Assembly: GCA_002843155.1 (NCBI GenBank)
Contig: PGZD01000001.1
Location: 62,001-126,000, forward strand
Direction of reading: 5' to 3'
Length of the DNA stretch: 64,000 nucleotides
DNA from: Gammaproteobacteria bacterium HGW-Gammaproteobacteria-3
Lineage (GTDB): Bacteria > Pseudomonadota > Gammaproteobacteria > Methylococcales > Methylomonadaceae
Made by a program: the position numbers and the translations under genes
Shown: in pieces, positions 6,624-30,390 of the stretch
Position numbering within the stretch: the stretch's first letter is position 1
How the letters are laid out: every line of letters begins with the position of its first letter
Notes under the pieces: generated by a model
The model's database searches: none
Seen by the model: only the letters and a program-made list of their open reading frames with translations
What the model was told of the DNA's origin: nothing

Positions 6624-8034
6624 GCAATTGTTATTAACCGCCACAGTGACCTTGGGGATAGGCTTGGCGGGCGGTTATTGGCTGGCTCAGCAACCTAAAC
6701 AGGAATCGGTTGTTCAACCGGCAGAGGGCAGGAAGCCTTTGTTTTATCGAAGCCCCATGAATCCATCGGCGACTTCCCCTGTGCCAACCAAGGATGAAAT
6801 GGGCATGGCTTATGAGCCGGTTTATGCCGACGATAATGTGCCTAAGCAACCCAAAATCCTGTTTTACCGTAATCCCATGAATCCCTCGGTCACCTCGCCG
6901 GTGCCGGCCAAAGACAATATGGGCATGGATTATCTGCCCATGTATGCGGAAGATGAGCATAAAGCCGACGACTCGGCCGGTACCGTTAGAATCGATGCCG
7001 CCACGGTCCAAAACATCGGCGTGCGAACCTCGTTTGCCAAACAAACCTTGCTATCGCATGTGGTCCGAGCCGTTGGCCGGGTAGCCTATGATGAAGAGCA
7101 TATTGTCCGCCTGCATCCCAAAACCGAAGGCTGGATCGAAACCTTGCGTGCCGATAAGACTGGGCAAAGGGTCAGGAAGAATGAAGAGCTGCTGAGTATT
7201 TACTCCCCACAACTGGTGGCCAGCCAACAGGAATATGTGCTGGCGTTAAACAATCTTAAAGTGTTGGAAAAAAGCCCGATCGAAGACATTCGCCGTGGCG
7301 CGGAAGAACTGGTCAAAAGCTCCCGCGAACGCTTGAATCTGTTGGATGTGCCGGCCCATCAACTACACGACCTGACGGATAGCCAATCCATCAAAAAGAG
7401 CCTGCATATTCATACCCCGGCGGACGGCATCGTCATCAATATCGGTGCTCGCGAAGGCCAATACGTGACGCCGGAAACAGAGCTGTACATGATCGCCGAT
7501 CTATCCACGGTCTGGGTCTATGCCGAAATTTATGAGTACGAACTGCCCTGGGTGAAGGAAGGCGACCCGGTTCACATGCGCTTGGCCGGTGTGCCGGGCC
7601 GGACGTTCAGAGGCCGCCTGGCGTTTATCTATCCCTATGCCGAAGCCAAGACCCGGACCATTAAAGTGCGTCTGGTATTTGATAATGCCGACTTATTGTT
7701 AAAACCCGATATGTTTGCCGAAGTCACTATCCATGCCGGCAAACAACTGGATGCGGTGGTGATACCTTCCGAAGCCGTTATCCGTTCCGGCGCGCAAACC
7801 CAGGTGTTGGTGGTGCGCGGTCCCGGTAAATTCGAGCCGCGTCAGGTGACGACGGGTTTGTCGTCCAATGACGACATTGCCATTATTGATGGCTTAGCTG
7901 CGGGTGAGGAAGTGGTCACCTTGGCGCAATTCCTGATCGACTCCGAATCCAAGCTGAACGAAGCCACCTCTAAGATGACGGAACCTTCGGCACCGCAACA
8001 GCCGGCAACCAAGTCGTTGTCCGTTGTCCGTTGA
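6616..8034 (+). CDS. cusB: CusB-like periplasmic adaptor with two heavy-metal-binding repeats
   Basis: A 472-residue membrane-fusion protein linking CusA to CusC. An N-terminal anchor (residues 5-23) is followed by two tandem heavy-metal-binding domains: FYRSPMNPSATSPVPTKDEM with GMAYEPVY, and FYRNPMNPSVTSPVPAKDNM with GMDYLPMY. The HlyD-type barrel-sandwich and beta-barrel domains follow (GWIETLRADKTGQRV, ADGIVINIGAREGQYV, LRPDM-like LLKPDMFAEV). His/Met in the HMBD repeats are typical of Cu/Ag adaptors. The ATG at 6616 has a GAGG site and overlaps the cusC stop. The same two-repeat layout is found in the operon 2 adaptor. Confidence 0.92.
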   Translation: MNKQLLLTATVTLGIGLAGGYWLAQQPKQESVVQPAEGRKPLFYRSPMNPSATSPVPTKDEMGMAYEPVYADDNVPKQPKILFYRNPMNPSVTSPVPAKDNMGMDYLPMYAEDEHKADDSAGTVRIDAATVQNIGVRTSFAKQTLLSHVVRAVGRVAYDEEHIVRLHPKTEGWIETLRADKTGQRVRKNEELLSIYSPQLVASQQEYVLALNNLKVLEKSPIEDIRRGAEELVKSSRERLNLLDVPAHQLHDLTDSQSIKKSLHIHTPADGIVINIGAREGQYVTPETELYMIADLSTVWVYAEIYEYELPWVKEGDPVHMRLAGVPGRTFRGRLAFIYPYAEAKTRTIKVRLVFDNADLLLKPDMFAEVTIHAGKQLDAVVIPSEAVIRSGAQTQVLVVRGPGKFEPRQVTTGLSSNDDIAIIDGLAAGEEVVTLAQFLIDSESKLNEATSKMTEPSAPQQPATKSLSVVR

Positions 8035-8051
8035 GCAGGGAGCGCACCGAC

Positions 8052-11000
8052 ATGACTGATTTCATCATCAATAGCGTTTTAAAAGATCGCTTCATGGTAT
8101 TGCTGGGGGCAATTATCCTGGCCATCGGCGGGATTTGGTCGTTTAAGAATATGCCATTGGACGCGATACCGGACCTGTCCGACGTGCAGGTGATTATCTT
8201 CACCGACTATGCCGACCAATCGCCGCAGGTGGTCGAAAATCAGGTCACCTATCCCTTGACCACCGCCATGCTGGCCGTGCCGCATGCCAAGGTGGTGCGC
8301 GGTTATTCCTTCTTCGGCTTGTCGTTTGTTTATGTGATTTTCGAAGACGGCACCGACATCTATTGGGCGCGGTCGCGGGTGCTGGAATATCTCAACTATG
8401 TGAAAAATCGTTTGCCGCAAGGCGTCACGCCGGCGCTCGGTCCCGATGCCACCGGTGTCGGCTGGATTTACGAATATGCCTTGGTGGACAAGACCGGCAA
8501 GCACGACCTGGCGCAACTGCGTTCGATTCAAGACTGGTATCTGCGTTATCCCTTGCAGACCGTGCCTGGTGTGTCTGAGGTCGCTTCGGTTGGTGGCTAC
8601 GTTAAACAATACCAGGTGGAAGTCGACCCCAACGCGCTGCAAGCCTATGACATTGCCTTATCCACGGTGATGATGGCCATCAAGCGCTCCAACAACGATG
8701 TTGGTGGGCGTCTGCTGGAAGTGGGTGAAACCGAATACATGGTCAGGGGGCTGGGTTACATCAAATCCATCGCCGATCTGAATACCATACCGGTGGGCGT
8801 CGATGCCAACGGTACGCCGATACGGTTACAGGATGTGGCTCATATTCAAATTGGCCCCGAGCTGCGCCGAGGCGTCACCGAACTCAACGGCGAAGGCGAA
8901 GTAGCCGGCGGCGTGGTGATCATGCGTTTCGGTGAAAACGCCCTGGCAACCATTGAAGATGTACGGGCGAAACTGGAAGAACTGAAAAAAGGCCTGCCGG
9001 AAGGGGTTGAAATCGTCCCGGTCTATGACCGAGGCAGCCTGATCGAACGGGCGGTGGACACCTTGAAAGAGGCGTTGACCCAAGAGCTGATCATCGTTTG
9101 CGCCTTGGTCGCCTTGTTTTTACTGCACCTGCGTTCGTCCTTGGTTATCGTGATTACCTTGCCCTTGGGTATCCTGATGGCCTTCATTGCGATGAAATGG
9201 CAAGGCATGAATGCCAACATCATGTCGTTGGGCGGTATCGCGCTGGCCATCGGCGATATGGTCGATGGTGGCGTGGTGATGGTGGAAAACGCCCATAAAC
9301 ACCTGGCCGAAGCGGCCGAGAAAAAACAAGCCAAGTTGACTTCACAGGAACGCTGGGAAGCCATCGGCAATGCCTCCCGCGAAGTCGGTTCGGGGCTGTT
9401 TTCCTCGCTGTTGGTGATTACGGTTTCCTTCCTGCCCATCATCACCATGGAAGCACAGGAAGGCCGCCTGTTCAGCCCATTGGCGTACACCAAAACCTAT
9501 GCAATGGCCGCCGCCGCGATATTGACCATCACTTTGGTGCCGGTGCTGATGGGCTATTTTGTGCGCGGCAAGATCATTCCCGAGCAAAAAAACCCGATTA
9601 ATCGGATTTTGCATGCCATGCATTCGCCGGTTTTAAAAGTAGCGATGCGCTGGCGAGGTGCCACGCTCATAGTGGCGTTGCTGTTGATGGCCTCTACGCT
9701 TTATCCCTTATCCAAACTGGGTAGCGAGTTTATGCCGCCCCTGGATGAAGGCGACATTTTATACATGCCCACCACCTTTCCGGGCATATCCGTCACCAAG
9801 GCCAAGGAGGTGTTACAACAGACCGACAAGATCATCAAGACCTTTCCCGAGGTGCATCATGTGTTCGGCAAGATCGGCCGGGCCGAAACCGCCACCGATG
9901 CCGCACCGTTGATGATGGTGGAAACTACCATTAAGTTAAAGCCAAGAGAACAGTGGCCTGATCCGACCAAAACCACCCGGCAACTGATGGATGAAATGGA
10001 CAGGGCCATCCATTTCCCTGGTTTGGCCAACGCCTGGACCATGCCCATCAAAACCCGGATAGACATGCTCTCCACCGGCATCAAGACCCCGGTGGGCATC
10101 AAGGTATCCGGTCCCGATCTGAACGTGCTGCAATCCCTGTCGCTGCAAATCGAACAGGCCATGAAAACCTTGCCGGACACGCTGTCGGCCTACGGTGATC
10201 GGGCGGTCGGCGGCTATTTCCTGGACTTCGACATCAACCGCGAAGCCGCCGCGCGTTACGGCTTAACGGTCGGCGATGTGCAGGATGTGATTCAAAGCGC
10301 GATCGGCGGCATGAACATCACCGAAACCGTGGAAGGGCTGGAGCGCTATCCGGTCAATCTGCGTTACCCGCGCGATCTGCGGGATAACCCGGAAGCCTTG
10401 CGACGAGTGTTGATTTCCACCCCGACCGGAAGCCAGATTCCTTTGACATCGGTGGCAGACATCAATTTTAAACGCGGTACGGATGTCATCAAAACCGAGG
10501 ATGCACGGCCCAATGCCTGGATTTATGTGGACCTTAAAATCTCCGACATTGGCGGTTATGTGGAGCAGGCAAAAAAGACCTTAGCCGAGACTGTCACGAT
10601 ACCTGCTGGTTATACCGTCACTTGGTCCGGTCAATTCGAATACATGGAGCGAGCGGCGGAACGCTTGCGCATCGTAGTGCCCATCACACTACTGCTGATT
10701 TTTATCCTGTTGTATACCGCCTTTCGCAATATCACCGAGCCGACTATCGTGATGTTGGCGATTCCATTTAGCCTGATTGGTGGAATTTGGTTCATATACT
10801 GGTTGGGGTACAACCTGTCGATTACCGTCTATGTCGGTTTTATTGCGCTGGCCGGCACGGCGGCGGAAACCGGGGTGATGGTGCTAAGTTTTATCGATAT
10901 TGAAATCGAAAAACTGCGGGCGCAAAAGCAGGCGCCATTGACCGGCGAGGAAATCAGAGTGGCTTGCGAAGCCGCGACGGCATTGCGCGTTCGGCCGGTC

Positions 11001-23464: not shown

Positions 23465-24589
23465 TTAAACGACTGTCTGCCAAAGCAGCCGTATCCCGAC
23501 TGTGAACAAGAACAGCGCAAATATCTTTTTCAGGTTCTCGGTCGGCAGCTTATGTGCGAGTTGCGCCCCCATTGGGGCGAATACCCGGCTACTGGTCACG
23601 ATGCAAAGAAACGCCGGTACATAAAGATAACCCAGGCTCCAGCTAGGAAGACTGGCGTTGCTCCAGCCCAGGGCGATGTAGCCGAAAGAACCGACGATAG
23701 CGATGGATAATCCACAGGCGCTGGAAATAATCCCGGCTTGGCGCAAGGAAAACTGGCGCTTGACCAGGAAAGGGACGATGATGACCCCGATGTCGGCGCC
23801 CAGGAGAGTGCAAAGTACACCGATGATGCCGCCTGCACCGACAAGGTTTCGTTCGCCAGGCGACTTATCAGGAACGAGCGCTGGCGAGTAGGGTTTGATT
23901 ATCTGAAAAGCTACCCATAGCGGAAAAAAGGCGAACAGCGTTTTAAAAAGATCGGTCGGCAGGCTGTCCGCGACAACTGACCCCAACAGAGAACCGACCA
24001 AGACACCTGGCACCAGTTGCTTCACGACCGGCCAGTCGACCGCACCGAGAAGGTGGTGAGACTGAAGGGAGGCGGCTGAAGTGACGATGATGGTGGCTAG
24101 CGAAGTCGCCACGGCCATCAGCATGACCAGGTCCGGCGCAATCCCCTGAGCCGAAAAAAGCCAGACCAGGAAAGGGACGATAATAATGCCGCCGCCGATG
24201 CCGAACAGTCCGGAAAGCAGGCCCGCAACGCTTCCCAAAAGCAGATAGTAAATACTCGGCAAGCCGACCATCGCCAGCGTGAGCGTCGCGGTAACACAGA
24301 ACAGTGTCTTATACAGACGCTCGCTTTTAGGCTCTGGGCCAGTCTCGCCGGATTCATCGGTCTGAACGGATGACTGATAAAGCTTGCTATGGGCAAATAC
24401 GAGACAATTAACCGCTGTGAAATTAAAGATCGGGCTCAGGAAGTGCAACACCGACAGGTGGCTGATGGCTGCATTGCCAAAACCGGCCGCCATCAACGCC
24501 AATGGTGTTTTGCCATAGAGGGAAGCCCAATCGCGACCGTGGTCTCGCCAAAGATCAACGAGTTCGACTCCGAATTTCACTTGTATCAT
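23465..24589 (-). CDS. TauE/SafE family permease (second) with N-terminal extension
   Basis: A 374-residue membrane protein. Residues about 95-374 form a TauE/SafE permease (LLSGLFGIGGGIIIVPF, then LCTLLGADIGVIIVPFLV in the second repeat). The first ~75 residues (WRDHGRDWASLYGKTPLALM, FLSPIFNFTAVNCLVFAH) are not part of the usual family, contain a hydrophobic segment and are joined through a charged linker (DESGETGPEPKSE). The extension might be a fused small domain or a relic of another gene. The ATG at 24589 is the only in-frame start giving the whole extension. Substrate unknown. Confidence 0.78.
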   Translation of the reverse strand: MIQVKFGVELVDLWRDHGRDWASLYGKTPLALMAAGFGNAAISHLSVLHFLSPIFNFTAVNCLVFAHSKLYQSSVQTDESGETGPEPKSERLYKTLFCVTATLTLAMVGLPSIYYLLLGSVAGLLSGLFGIGGGIIIVPFLVWLFSAQGIAPDLVMLMAVATSLATIIVTSAASLQSHHLLGAVDWPVVKQLVPGVLVGSLLGSVVADSLPTDLFKTLFAFFPLWVAFQIIKPYSPALVPDKSPGERNLVGAGGIIGVLCTLLGADIGVIIVPFLVKRQFSLRQAGIISSACGLSIAIVGSFGYIALGWSNASLPSWSLGYLYVPAFLCIVTSSRVFAPMGAQLAHKLPTENLKKIFALFLFTVGIRLLWQTVV

Positions 24590-24746: not shown

Positions 24747-25764
24747 TTAATCCAAGTCAGAACAGCTATTTACAATACAGTGGCTTAACGCTAAGAAAAT
24801 ATCCTGCCGGTTGTTTTGTGTGGTGATAATCTCTATTCGGCTATTCGCTGAAGGTTTACACGGCACGATAGTCATTACCCCATCAACCGCATTAAAAATA
24901 AACCAGCCTTTATCGGTCGCAAAAACCGCTTTTATTCTTTCTGCCTCAAGGTTGCTTAGTAACCGTGATGTGCGTATATAATCAAAGCAACTGTGTTCCG
25001 GGAATACAGCGCCAAAACTCTGGTAACCATCCGTTGAATTAGACTTAAGTTGATACTTATTCGTTAGCGTGACTTCAGCTGTTTGAGTGAATTGATCTTG
25101 ATGGGCATTAGGAAAAGAGGCTTGCCTTTCCGGGTTTCTGGTCAAATCCAGCCAGGCAACATCCAGTTGACCTTGAACAGTTTGAGCAACAACCGCTTTA
25201 CGTGGTCGGCTGCCATCGGCCCAACGCTCGAACAGCTGAGTCACTGCCTTGTCGGCTAAATCCATTTTATTAGCGACTAGCACATCAGCTAAGGCGATTT
25301 GATCAACAAAGTTTTCATGCGATGTGTAGCGACTATCGCCTAACTTTCTCGGATCAACCAGGCAGATACTGGCCCGCACATCCAGCACGGTTTGAAAATG
25401 CCCGCCGACGAGCCTATCCAAGACCCGCTTTGGGTGGCCTAACCCCGTTGGTTCAATAAGCAAACGGTCCGGCTTGACTTCCGTTAACAAGCGATTAACG
25501 GCAACCTGAAAAGGCAGTCCCACCGCACAACACAGACAGCCCCCCGGCACTTCCCTGATTATTGCTCCGTGAGCTGCGGATAGAGCCGTCGATTCCAACT
25601 TGTCCAAACTCATTGACCAATACCGCCCATTTTTCGTCAGCCGGTTTTTGATTAAGCAAGTTAAGAATGGCCGTGGTTTTACCGGCACCGAGGAAACCCA
25701 TCACGATATTGGTTGGGATATTGGTCAGTTTTCTGGGCACTTTAGGCTTCATCCATCTAGGCAT
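24747..25764 (-). pseudogene. CobW/G3E-family GTPase split by a frameshift
   Basis: The N-terminal frame (ATG 25764 or 25752) encodes GFLGAGKTTAILNLL (Walker A) and VLVNEFGQVGIDGS, then runs out of homology. The neighbouring frame continues the protein with AHGAIIREVPGGCLCCAVGL (the CxCC metal motif), RLLIEPTGLGHPKRVLD and the CobW C-terminal domain to 24747. The switch lies near 25580-25600 and a single-base change would restore one ~339-residue protein. G3E GTPases act as metal chaperones. It follows merE on the same strand. Either a recent inactivation or a sequencing error; both halves are otherwise well preserved. Confidence 0.85.
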
Positions 25765-25765
25765 C

Positions 25766-25802
25766 AAACTGTAGAGACACGATGTGCGCGTCTCTACAGT
25801 TT
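25766..25802. repeat. Long inverted repeat between merE and cobW-like gene
   Basis: AAACTGTAGAGACACG and its reverse complement (one mismatch) form 16-base arms around a 5-base loop. The merE stop codon lies in one arm and the cobW-like start abuts the other. It resembles widely dispersed GTAGAGACG-type palindromic repeats, and could act as a terminator or mask the downstream start. Confidence 0.75.
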
Positions 25803-26102
25803 AATTTTATTAAATGCCAACAGTGCTGCGGTTAACGAAATTAGGCATATCACCGAAAATCCCATGACGGCGGTTACCGTATCTGCTGACAAGAAACTGC
25901 CTAAGGCTGTCCCGGAAAACAGCATGATCCAAAAAGCAATATGACAAGGACAGGCGAGCAATGCTAAAGACGCAAAAAACCAACCGGTTAAACGCCTTCT
26001 CGGCGACAGGGATTGGTCGGAATATGGCTGCGTTAAAGAGGTATCACAAGACTTGTTATCACACTTGGATAAGTGAGCCGTGTTATTTAAACTTGTTTTC
26101 AT
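25794..26102 (-). CDS. merE: MerE-like mercury transport protein
   Basis: A 102-residue membrane protein. The core LTGWFFASLALLACPCHIAF places CPCH at residues 51-54, followed by FSGTALGSFLSADTVTAVMG and a final hydrophobic helix, which matches MerE (CPCH in TM1, AGTTAGAFL after it). MerE takes up Hg(II) and methylmercury. This copy is longer than the usual ~78 residues because of a polar, Cys-containing N-terminal extension (SKCDNKSCD). Last intact gene of the mer operon, behind the TRASH protein. Confidence 0.8.
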   Translation of the reverse strand: MKTSLNNTAHLSKCDNKSCDTSLTQPYSDQSLSPRRRLTGWFFASLALLACPCHIAFWIMLFSGTALGSFLSADTVTAVMGFSVICLISLTAALLAFNKIKL

Positions 26103-26126: not shown

Positions 26127-26504
26127 TTATTTACCACAACAGCCAATGGTTTCACCGAAAACACCGGCATAGTTTGTTTGCCAGGCTAAACGCGCAATGA
26201 AATAGTGTGGATTTTTATTGAATTCATTCAAGCAATGAGGGCAGCGACAAAACCCAACCGAGTTGCCATTAAAATCCACTGTCACTGTGGCATTAAACGG
26301 TTTCTCAGCTAAACAAACAGGACATACCGTCAAACCGGCTGTTTCGGCCAGACATGATTCAGGGTGGGTTATGAATAACTCCAAACAACCTTTGCAACAG
26401 AACCAGTATTGCTTCCCTGCATAGTTATGGTGAACAGCATTTTTCTTAGTGATGCCTAATCTAACTAACGAGCATCCACAAGCCGGGCAAATGGGCGTCT
26501 CCAT
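26127..26504 (-). CDS. Double TRASH/YHS-like Cys-rich protein in mer operon
   Basis: A 125-residue soluble protein with 14 cysteines in two similar blocks. Block 1 has CPACGC (6-11), YAGKQYWFCCKGCLELF (Cys36, 37, 40) and Cys51. Block 2 has CPVC (61-64) and GFCRCPHCLNEF (Cys86, 88, 91). The C-terminus is IGCCGK. The pattern Y-x-G-x-x-Y-x-F-C-C-x-x-C with a following helix is that of TRASH/YHS metal-binding domains. It sits between merC and merE with short gaps, so it is part of the operon. Archaeal MerH is a TRASH mercury chaperone; a similar role here is inference. Confidence 0.7.
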   Translation of the reverse strand: METPICPACGCSLVRLGITKKNAVHHNYAGKQYWFCCKGCLELFITHPESCLAETAGLTVCPVCLAEKPFNATVTVDFNGNSVGFCRCPHCLNEFNKNPHYFIARLAWQTNYAGVFGETIGCCGK

Positions 26505-26510
26505 CGTTTG

Positions 26511-26936
26511 TTACCGGTCTTCTGTCTTGCATTCGTCATCCACGCAGGCAGGACTGTTGCGTCCGATCATAAAATCCCAGATATTGGCGACGACAAAAAG
26601 AGTAAGCCCACTATAGACCAGTATCACGGCGACCGGCAATATCCCAGTAACGGTAAACCCCAAGCCGATGATACTGAGCAATGCGCCGATACCACCGGTC
26701 CAGAACGCGAGCATCGCTTCCTCCGATAGCGCTTCATGTTTCCTGGCGGAACGATAAAGCGCCCATAAATTTAAACCGGTGAACCCTACAAATATCGGTA
26801 ACAAATAGGCATCGTTTATCAGAAAACCAAGCCCAACAGCACCTACTGTGCTGAGCACAACAGAGATGCCGAGACAACACGCCGCAGCAATCGCGGCACC
26901 GAATAAACCGCCAAATTGACTTAATTTTTCTCGCAT
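26511..26936 (-). CDS. merC: MerC-like mercury uptake protein
   Basis: A 141-residue protein with four hydrophobic segments and the membrane-embedded vicinal cysteines AAACCLGISVVLSTVG (Cys20-Cys21), as in MerC. The C-terminal tail adds ACVDDEC, a second cytoplasmic Cys pair. MerC imports Hg(II) for reduction by MerA. Length equals the family norm. It lies between merD and the TRASH gene. MerT is also present in this operon, so there are at least two importers plus MerE. Confidence 0.85.
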   Translation of the reverse strand: MREKLSQFGGLFGAAIAAACCLGISVVLSTVGAVGLGFLINDAYLLPIFVGFTGLNLWALYRSARKHEALSEEAMLAFWTGGIGALLSIIGLGFTVTGILPVAVILVYSGLTLFVVANIWDFMIGRNSPACVDDECKTEDR

Positions 26937-26959: not shown

Positions 26960-27325
26960 TTAAAGCACGATACCTAAATGCTGCTTCAGGCTTTGTTCAA
27001 AACAATTTAATCGATCCCGACATGTTTCAATATATTGAGTTAACTCAGCCAGACTTGTTTCCGTAGCGTCAACATCCCTGTTATCACGGCCTGACAATAA
27101 ACGGTCAATCTGCTCTAACGGAACACCCACATCACGAGCCGTTCGAATAAACAGTAACCGTTCAATCACGGGCTCGTAAAACAAGAACATTCCGCCCGCT
27201 GTTCTGTCGTTTACCTGAATCAAACCTCGATCTATATAGGTTCTAATGCAATGGGTACTGATACCGGTTTGTTCAGCCAGAGTTGAGAGTCTGATCAGTT
27301 TGTCATCCTTAAGACAGACATTCAT
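26960..27325 (-). CDS. merD: MerD-like co-regulator
   Basis: A 121-residue MerR-family protein with an N-terminal winged helix (IRLSTLAEQTGISTHCIRTY, IDRGLIQVNDRTAGGMFLFY) and a short dimerisation helix. It lacks the three mercury-ligand cysteines of MerR. Position directly after merA and overall size fit MerD, the protein that displaces MerR and turns the operon down. ATG 27325 overlaps the merA stop region (27328) by a few bases upstream in the message, leaving genes adjacent; a longer frame from 27343 would begin inside merA. Confidence 0.78.
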   Translation of the reverse strand: MNVCLKDDKLIRLSTLAEQTGISTHCIRTYIDRGLIQVNDRTAGGMFLFYEPVIERLLFIRTARDVGVPLEQIDRLLSGRDNRDVDATETSLAELTQYIETCRDRLNCFEQSLKQHLGIVL

Positions 27326-27327
27326 TT

Positions 27328-29348
<2,021 letters not shown>

Positions 29349-29353
29349 TTTCC

Positions 29354-29725
29354 TTAATTCATAAAAATCGGGGCATACCAGGGAAAGGTCAACAGCAGTA
29401 AGATCAACGCCGAGCCAATCCAGAAGATCATCCGCTGTTTGTGTTTAACTTCGGGTAATGCACAGGCCTCGCCTTCTTCACAGCTATCCGGTATCAAATA
29501 GAGTTTGCGATACCCCAGGCCAATAAAAATCAGGGTTAGAATAATAAAATAAGGTCTAACCGTTTCCATTGAAGTGAAGGCGCTCATCCACGCGCCGCCA
29601 ATCCCTAAGGATATAAGCAGCAAGGGGCCGACACAGCAGACCGATGCGCCGATAGCGGCTAGTACGGCACCGATTCCTAGCCAGGATGGGTTTTCTGTGG
29701 GTGGTATTTCATGTTCTGTCGTCAT
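29354..29725 (-). CDS. merT: MerT mercuric transport protein
   Basis: A 123-residue inner-membrane protein with three hydrophobic segments. TM1 contains the vicinal pair ASVCCVGPLLL (Cys30-Cys31), and the cytoplasmic loop carries the second pair DSCEEGEACAL (Cys82, Cys88), exactly the MerT plan. It transfers Hg(II) from MerP to MerA. The start at 29725 gives the standard length; a frame from 29767 adds a non-family extension. First gene after the MerR-type promoter. Confidence 0.93.
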   Translation of the reverse strand: MTTEHEIPPTENPSWLGIGAVLAAIGASVCCVGPLLLISLGIGGAWMSAFTSMETVRPYFIILTLIFIGLGYRKLYLIPDSCEEGEACALPEVKHKQRMIFWIGSALILLLLTFPWYAPIFMN

Positions 29726-29823
29726 AAGATTTTCCGAAATAAAAACTAAGCGCCTGATCCTCTGCATTCAACAAGAGCATGATGAATGCAGAGAATGTGA
29801 TGTTTTAATAAACTTCGGATAAA

Positions 29824-29855
29824 AATTTAAATCCCGTTCTATAGAACAGAGTCAA
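29824..29855 (-). promoter_or_regulatory. MerR-type mer promoter/operator
   Basis: On the minus strand TTGACT (29850-29855) and TAAATT (29824-29829) are separated by 20 bases. The overlong spacer holds the perfect palindrome GTTCTATAGAAC (29836-29847), framed as CTGTTCTATAGAACGG. This corresponds to the classical mer operator TTGACTCCGTAC... with an overlong spacer that MerR untwists. It lies about 100 bases upstream of merT, just after the merR stop. Confidence 0.85.
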
Positions 29856-29881: not shown

Positions 29882-30286
29882 TCAGGATTTTGAGTCCGAG
29901 TTATTTGAAAGGGCATTGATGAGGGAACAATGTTCTGCGGAGGAATCGTTCTGACAACCTTTAACCAGGCTATCCAATACATTATGAAGGGCCGTTAAAT
30001 CCTTTATTTGCGCATCGATTTGCTGGCATTTCTGTTCGGCAATTTTTCGCACATCGGCGCAATGATCATCATCAAGCGATAACAGTTGGGCAATTTCTTT
30101 TAAGGTAAAACCCGCTTGTTGCGCGCGTTTGATGAACCGGATTCTGGCGATGGTATGGGGTGGATAATGCCGGTAGCCGCTAAGGGGTTTACCAGGTTCA
30201 TCCAGCAAACCTATACGCTGGTAATAACGGATAGTTTCAACAGTGACTTCGGTTTGTTTGGCCAGATTGCCGATCGTCAGTTTCAT
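29882..30286 (-). CDS. merR: MerR mercury-responsive regulator
   Basis: A 134-residue regulator with winged HTH (MKLTIGNLAKQTEVTVETIR, YYQRIGLLDE) and a long dimerisation helix. The three Hg(II) ligands are Cys76, Cys111 and Cys120; their spacing (35 and 9) is identical to that of Cys82, Cys117 and Cys126 in the well-studied Tn501 MerR. It is encoded upstream of, and in the same direction as, merTPA, not divergently as in Tn501/Tn21. ATG 30286 is chosen because the MerR fold begins there; a frame from 30361 adds unrelated sequence. Confidence 0.93.
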   Translation of the reverse strand: MKLTIGNLAKQTEVTVETIRYYQRIGLLDEPGKPLSGYRHYPPHTIARIRFIKRAQQAGFTLKEIAQLLSLDDDHCADVRKIAEQKCQQIDAQIKDLTALHNVLDSLVKGCQNDSSAEHCSLINALSNNSDSKS

Positions 30287-30390
30287 CTTTGCGCCTGTAT
30301 GTGTTGTTTCAGAAAACGACCAATTGATGTGACGCGATTGATGGCGCAAGACAAAACGCACCTACCTGATCTGCATCCAGCAAGCGGCTG

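Follow-up and report, generated by a model that had tools for sequence, protein, structure and literature searches.

What is a small cysteine-rich gene doing between merC and merE of a bacterial mercury-resistance operon, and does its product handle the metal? The window analysed here, meaning the whole stretch of 64,000 nucleotides, contains a Methylococcales mer operon that reads on the minus strand merR-merT-merP-merA-merD-merC-gene-merE-cobW-tauE, in which the gene under study occupies 26127-26504 (minus strand); its 125-aa product contains 14 cysteines. An earlier note on this DNA had proposed an extra, two-domain TRASH member of the operon, tightly packed between merC and merE; the ORF proved to be placed exactly as claimed, both neighbours are confirmed by Pfam, and the gene begins 6 bp past merC and stops 24 bp ahead of merE.

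The upstream neighbour encodes a merC-like Hg(II) importer (26511-26936; PF03203, 28.4 bits, just over the cut-off of 27.6) and the downstream one a merE-like transporter (25794-26102; PF05052, 38.5 bits, cut-off 22.8; NF010310, 53.7 bits, under its cut-off of 80). Also on the minus strand lie a merD-like MerR-family regulator (26960-27343; TIGR02054, 66.5 bits, under its cut-off of 103.65; PF13411), the mercuric reductase gene merA, whose product has an N-terminal HMA domain and a C-terminal CCAG tail (27328-28998; TIGR02053, 567 bits; NF010311, 864.8 bits), merP (29013-29348; TIGR02052, 87.5 bits, under its cut-off of 92.55, with the HMA domain over cut-off), merT (29354-29767; PF02411, 110 bits) and merR (29882-30361; TIGR02051, 147 bits, cut-off 150.85). 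Between merR and merT we found a promoter of the form TTGACT-N19-TTAAAT (29825-29855, minus strand), with the dyad GTTCTATAGAAC in its spacer as an inverted repeat at 29836-29847. A long spacer between the -35 and -10 elements is the layout of MerR-controlled promoters, and six further mer loci of methanotrophs share an alignable -35 and dyad region. The gene shares the strand of the mer genes, is tightly spaced, recurs with them in the same order in other genomes and lies downstream of a MerR-type promoter; it truly belongs to this operon as an accessory gene.

The protein itself matches the YHS family (PF04945, 42.8 bits against a gathering cut-off of 30.3, E = 5.4e-11), as do 18 of 18 aligned homologues (E up to 0.01). 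Compared as profiles, its two halves align with a probability of 97% (E = 1e-10), pairing C6 with C61, C9 with C64, C36 with C86, C37 with C88 and C40 with C91, which identifies the protein as a tandem duplication. Repeat 1 spans approximately residues 5-57 (26334-26492) with C6, C9, C11, C36, C37 and C40, and repeat 2 approximately residues 60-109 (26178-26327) with C61, C64, C86, C88 and C91; the invariant columns of the homologues mark both repeats, and 11 cysteines are invariant across the 18 aligned sequences. The cysteine blocks described earlier can be read directly in the translation (ICPACGC...FCCKGC, VCPVC...FCRCPHC), as can the terminal GCCGK (26130-26144), which carries the vicinal pair C122-C123. 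The GCC of this tail recurs in 14 of the 18 homologues and is absent from the pMR68-type branch (L006, L045), L032 and L049. Among the closest copies dN/dS is 0.10-0.18, showing that the gene is under purifying selection. The YHS match (E = 5.4e-11), the alignment of the repeats, the dN/dS values and the gene order shared by other genomes together confirm that the observation goes beyond chance.

The strict TRASH signature is C-x19-22-C-x3-C. Neither repeat has this spacing (C11-x24-C36-x3-C40 or C9-x26-C36 in repeat 1, C64-x21-C86-x4-C91 in repeat 2), and the archaeal TRASH families PF08394 and PF24273 score 8.4 and 13.2 bits on the protein, far below their cut-offs of 27 and 27. The protein belongs to the same superfamily as TRASH but spaces its cysteines differently, and YHS is the better domain name. 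An AlphaFold model, whose input left out the pMR68 row, has a mean pLDDT of 88.7 and consists of two similar strand-strand-helix-helix units, followed from about residue 110 by a low-confidence tail. A PDB sequence search with the protein returned no significant match and a PDB fold search none with E < 0.001. The best weak fold matches were phenol/toluene/methane monooxygenase hydroxylases, which carry a YHS region, and ribosomal proteins of the L24e type; these are consistent with YHS/TRASH and are no proof of it. The L24e-type treble clef has a Cys4 zinc-finger logic in common with our protein, whereas the latter has no significant fold E-value to it and no ribosomal context. We read the fold as a tandem pair of YHS/TRASH-type, treble-clef-like repeats. 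Even the longest hydrophobic stretch falls short of a membrane segment and no sign of an anchor or signal peptide was seen, from which we infer that the protein is cytosolic.

We turn next to known relatives and functional counterparts. The earlier note had suspected that the gene is not a standard member of proteobacterial mer operons. A survey of 272 mer operons by Boyd and Barkay agrees, having recorded free-standing TRASH genes in five operons, all archaeal, and in no bacterial operon, with the archaeal protein proposed to traffic Hg (PMC3466566). Among open-licence papers we found none on YHS domains and mercury resistance. Like our protein, MerH of Sulfolobus belongs to the TRASH/YHS superfamily as a small, free-standing cysteine protein and is encoded together with merA, an arrangement that we observed in the window and in nine further records (L001, L004, L026, L101, L005, L027, L028, L046 and L047). 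Sulfolobus MerH has a single TRASH domain and belongs to an ArsR-type operon without merT or merP. The protein described here differs from it in having two tandem domains and a MerR-type proteobacterial operon, and the low scores of the archaeal TRASH models lend no support to a specific kinship between the two. The four-helix membrane transporter also called MerH and counted in the same survey (PMC3466566) shares only the name and is not a TRASH protein. The metal P-type ATPases of PF04945 carry the same domain by curated score, likewise as tandem N-terminal repeats, and are distant relatives at ~30% identity (L050, L054), whereas our protein is free-standing, has CPxC and FC(x)CxxC motifs (five cysteines per repeat) and ends in a Cys-Cys tail. 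MerP and NmerA, the N-terminal HMA domain of MerA, match it in proposed job, as small thiol proteins that hand Hg(II) on within the mer pathway; their ferredoxin-like HMA fold is unrelated, and MerP is periplasmic while our protein is apparently cytosolic.

To what extent are the homologues tied to mercury genes? Counting mer genes within a few kb as linkage, 14 of 23 intact homologue records are mer-linked, seven are stand-alone, one lies beside cusA and one is ambiguous. Linkage to merA, which the earlier note had proposed to examine, is seen in 12 of the 23: ten of the Methylococcales type (the window, L001, L002, L003, L004, L026, L101, L005, L027 and L028, with L002 and L004 near-identical and not independent) and two other gammaproteobacterial records in which merA is adjacent (L046, L047). 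L001, L004, L026 and L101 preserve the order merA-merD-merC-gene-merE, and shorter forms of it occur in L005, L027 and L028. In L045 the homologue adjoins merT-merP, with merR divergent, and on the Pseudomonas plasmid pMR68 (NC_019309; L006, 4727-5086) it starts ~70 bp after the stop codon of merB2, which the paper on this plasmid lists as an isolated lyase gene (PMC3737084); the gene table of the plasmid collection used, stated to be incomplete, holds no feature for it. Copper or unrelated genes, named in the earlier note as company that would speak against a mercury role, are not the main setting, as 14 of the 23 records are beside mer genes and one is directly after a copper/silver efflux gene (cusA, L032). 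The stand-alone records (L029, L030, L031, L048, L103, L109 and L110) include several on short contigs, and L103 with ~6 kb on each side. The homologues are thus not confined to mer genes, and these stand-alone relatives indicate that the double-YHS family is not mercury-exclusive. The reading of the earlier note is supported in part: an extra two-domain YHS/TRASH member of a proteobacterial mer operon stands, backed by the recurrent order, the MerR-type promoter and the mer linkage in separate lineages, and a chaperone function is putative. In the ambiguous record (L049) the homologue lies between a MerR-family gene and a flavoprotein gene. This flavoprotein (710-2065) resembles one beside the L045 homologue (7966-9309), both scoring ~300-320 bits against the models of MerA and of glutathione reductase and falling short of either cut-off; neither was counted as MerA, and they may be an unnamed reductase type of mer-like clusters.

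The family is rare. Intact carriers make up 9 of 151 Methylococcales genomes, 5 of 369 sampled Gammaproteobacteria genomes (the window's own included, in which the window copy is the sole double-YHS gene) and 3 of 385 genomes of the class of G350, and the orders of G799, G557 and G350 yielded no further members. A pattern scan of viral contigs gave 25 matches, none of them a relative, tblastn against phage sequences found no homologue, and in a plasmid search pMR68 was the only significant match, the others being mostly P-type ATPases with E > 0.1. We counted MerA only over its curated cut-off, as a loose E-value also catches related flavoprotein reductases. MerA was present in 31 of 151 Methylococcales genomes, including 7 of 9 carriers versus 24 of 142 non-carriers (odds ratio 17, Fisher p = 2e-4, which is optimistic since the genomes are related), and was missing in two of the nine Methylococcales carriers and in G821. 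This association rests mainly on the operon-borne copies. The homologue tree is weakly resolved, with 2 of 17 inner branches well supported, and groups the mer-linked copies of methanotrophs, pMR68 with L045, and the stand-alone copies with the merA-linked L046 and L047. Placing the label mer or not mer on it takes about two changes, and the tree is silent on the direction of recruitment.

Based on the genomic setting and the protein's residues, we read the gene as representing a rare, unnamed family of accessory genes in bacterial mer operons, assembled from known domains; its product is probably an unrecognised helper in the intracellular handling of mercury ions. Hg(II) is lethal to cytosolic thiols, and its route from the importers to MerA is usually pictured as a direct exchange between thiols, involving MerT, NmerA and glutathione. 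Our preferred explanation, to which we assign a probability of roughly 55%, is that the double-YHS protein is an accessory cytosolic Hg(II)-thiolate relay or buffer between the MerT, MerC and MerE importers and MerA. Its invariant thiols would bind Hg(II) taken over from these inner-membrane proteins and would hold it or hand it to MerA, and the flexible C-terminal Cys-Cys tail could serve as a mobile ligand akin to the C-terminal Cys pair (CCAG) of MerA. We favour such a carrier or buffer because of the position of the gene among importer genes downstream of merA, the linkage to merA and merB, the dense invariant thiols and the MerA-like tail, and from these we infer that Hg(II) would be the ligand and relay or buffering the role. 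The fuller version, in which a soluble double-YHS/TRASH chaperone was recruited separately beside merA, merT-merP and merB and uses its MerA-like tail to pass mercury from importers to reductase, is offered more tentatively, at somewhat less than even odds. Counting against a mercury carrier are the seven homologues with no nearby mer gene, the one after cusA, the carrier genomes that lack a MerA over cut-off and the pMR68-type branch without the Cys-Cys tail; moreover, four-Cys treble clefs mostly hold structural zinc, and most mer operons function without a double-YHS gene.

Zinc is the basis of one alternative, in which the protein partners the CobW (COG0523) GTPase in storing or delivering Zn(II), or in mending zinc proteins that Hg(II) has harmed, and does not handle mercury. 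A four-Cys treble clef suits zinc, most mer-linked loci of methanotrophs have cobW downstream (L001, L003, L004, L026, L027 and L101), and cobW still adjoins the gene in two (L104, L105) of the three copies that are frameshifted, decayed or truncated (L104, L105, L106). The mer link nevertheless persists in L005, L028, L045, L046, L047 and the pMR68 stretch, where cobW was not found, and the invariant cysteines exceed the need of one zinc site per domain. Also against this reading, the window's own cobW (24747-25767, minus strand; PF02492) is frameshift-broken, with ORFs in two frames compared with the intact 331-aa ORF of L001, and is either a pseudogene or the result of a sequencing error. 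We regard this explanation as unlikely. A general soft-metal or copper protein, taken up by mer operons among several metal systems, would account for the L032 homologue directly after cusA, for the ATPase repeats as distant relatives and for the stand-alone members sharing a part of the tree with L046 and L047; yet the identity to those repeats is just ~30%, and one intact record in 23 beside a copper/silver gene compares with 14 beside mer genes, making this rather improbable.

The decayed copies and the rarity of the family in Methylococcales and Gammaproteobacteria would also suit a passenger gene that contributes nothing to mercury resistance, which we consider quite improbable given the low dN/dS, the retained operon position and the association of separate branches with merA, merT-merP or merB. 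Archaeal regulators that respond to metals can contain TRASH domains (PF08394), and a thiol sensor or co-regulator, for instance one that modulates MerR or MerD and carries no metal onward, might be imagined on this ground; the protein showed no DNA-binding domain, however, PF08394 falls well short (8.4 bits, cut-off 27) and the operon is already supplied with MerR and a MerD-like protein, so that we give this idea very little weight.

If the relay or buffer reading is true, the Hg(II) route of bacterial mer operons would gain a step, performed by a dedicated soluble carrier, and with it a testable system. The bacterial double-YHS genes amend the published survey, in which TRASH genes were restricted to archaeal mer operons, and they indicate a likely role for the gene beside merB2 on pMR68, a well-studied mercury plasmid.

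Several other features of these loci merit mention. The last gene of the window's operon (23465-24589, minus strand) encodes a TauE/SafE permease with a fused MerT-like N-terminus (PF01925, 148.6 bits; PF02411, 41.3 bits), an arrangement that recurs in L001, L004 and L026 and may represent a fusion transporter of mer operons. The same genome has a second MerA over cut-off (G000:C63:41689-43077), accompanied by merR, merT and merP and with no double-YHS gene in its flanks. Directly upstream of merA, L002 and L004 (3116-3364) and L101 (11526-11756) carry an additional, incomplete copy of its N-terminal (HMA) region. Finally, the double-YHS gene is immediately preceded by a carbonic-anhydrase-like gene in L027 (6990-7649), where the latter sits between merD and the double-YHS gene, and in L105 (6014-6673).
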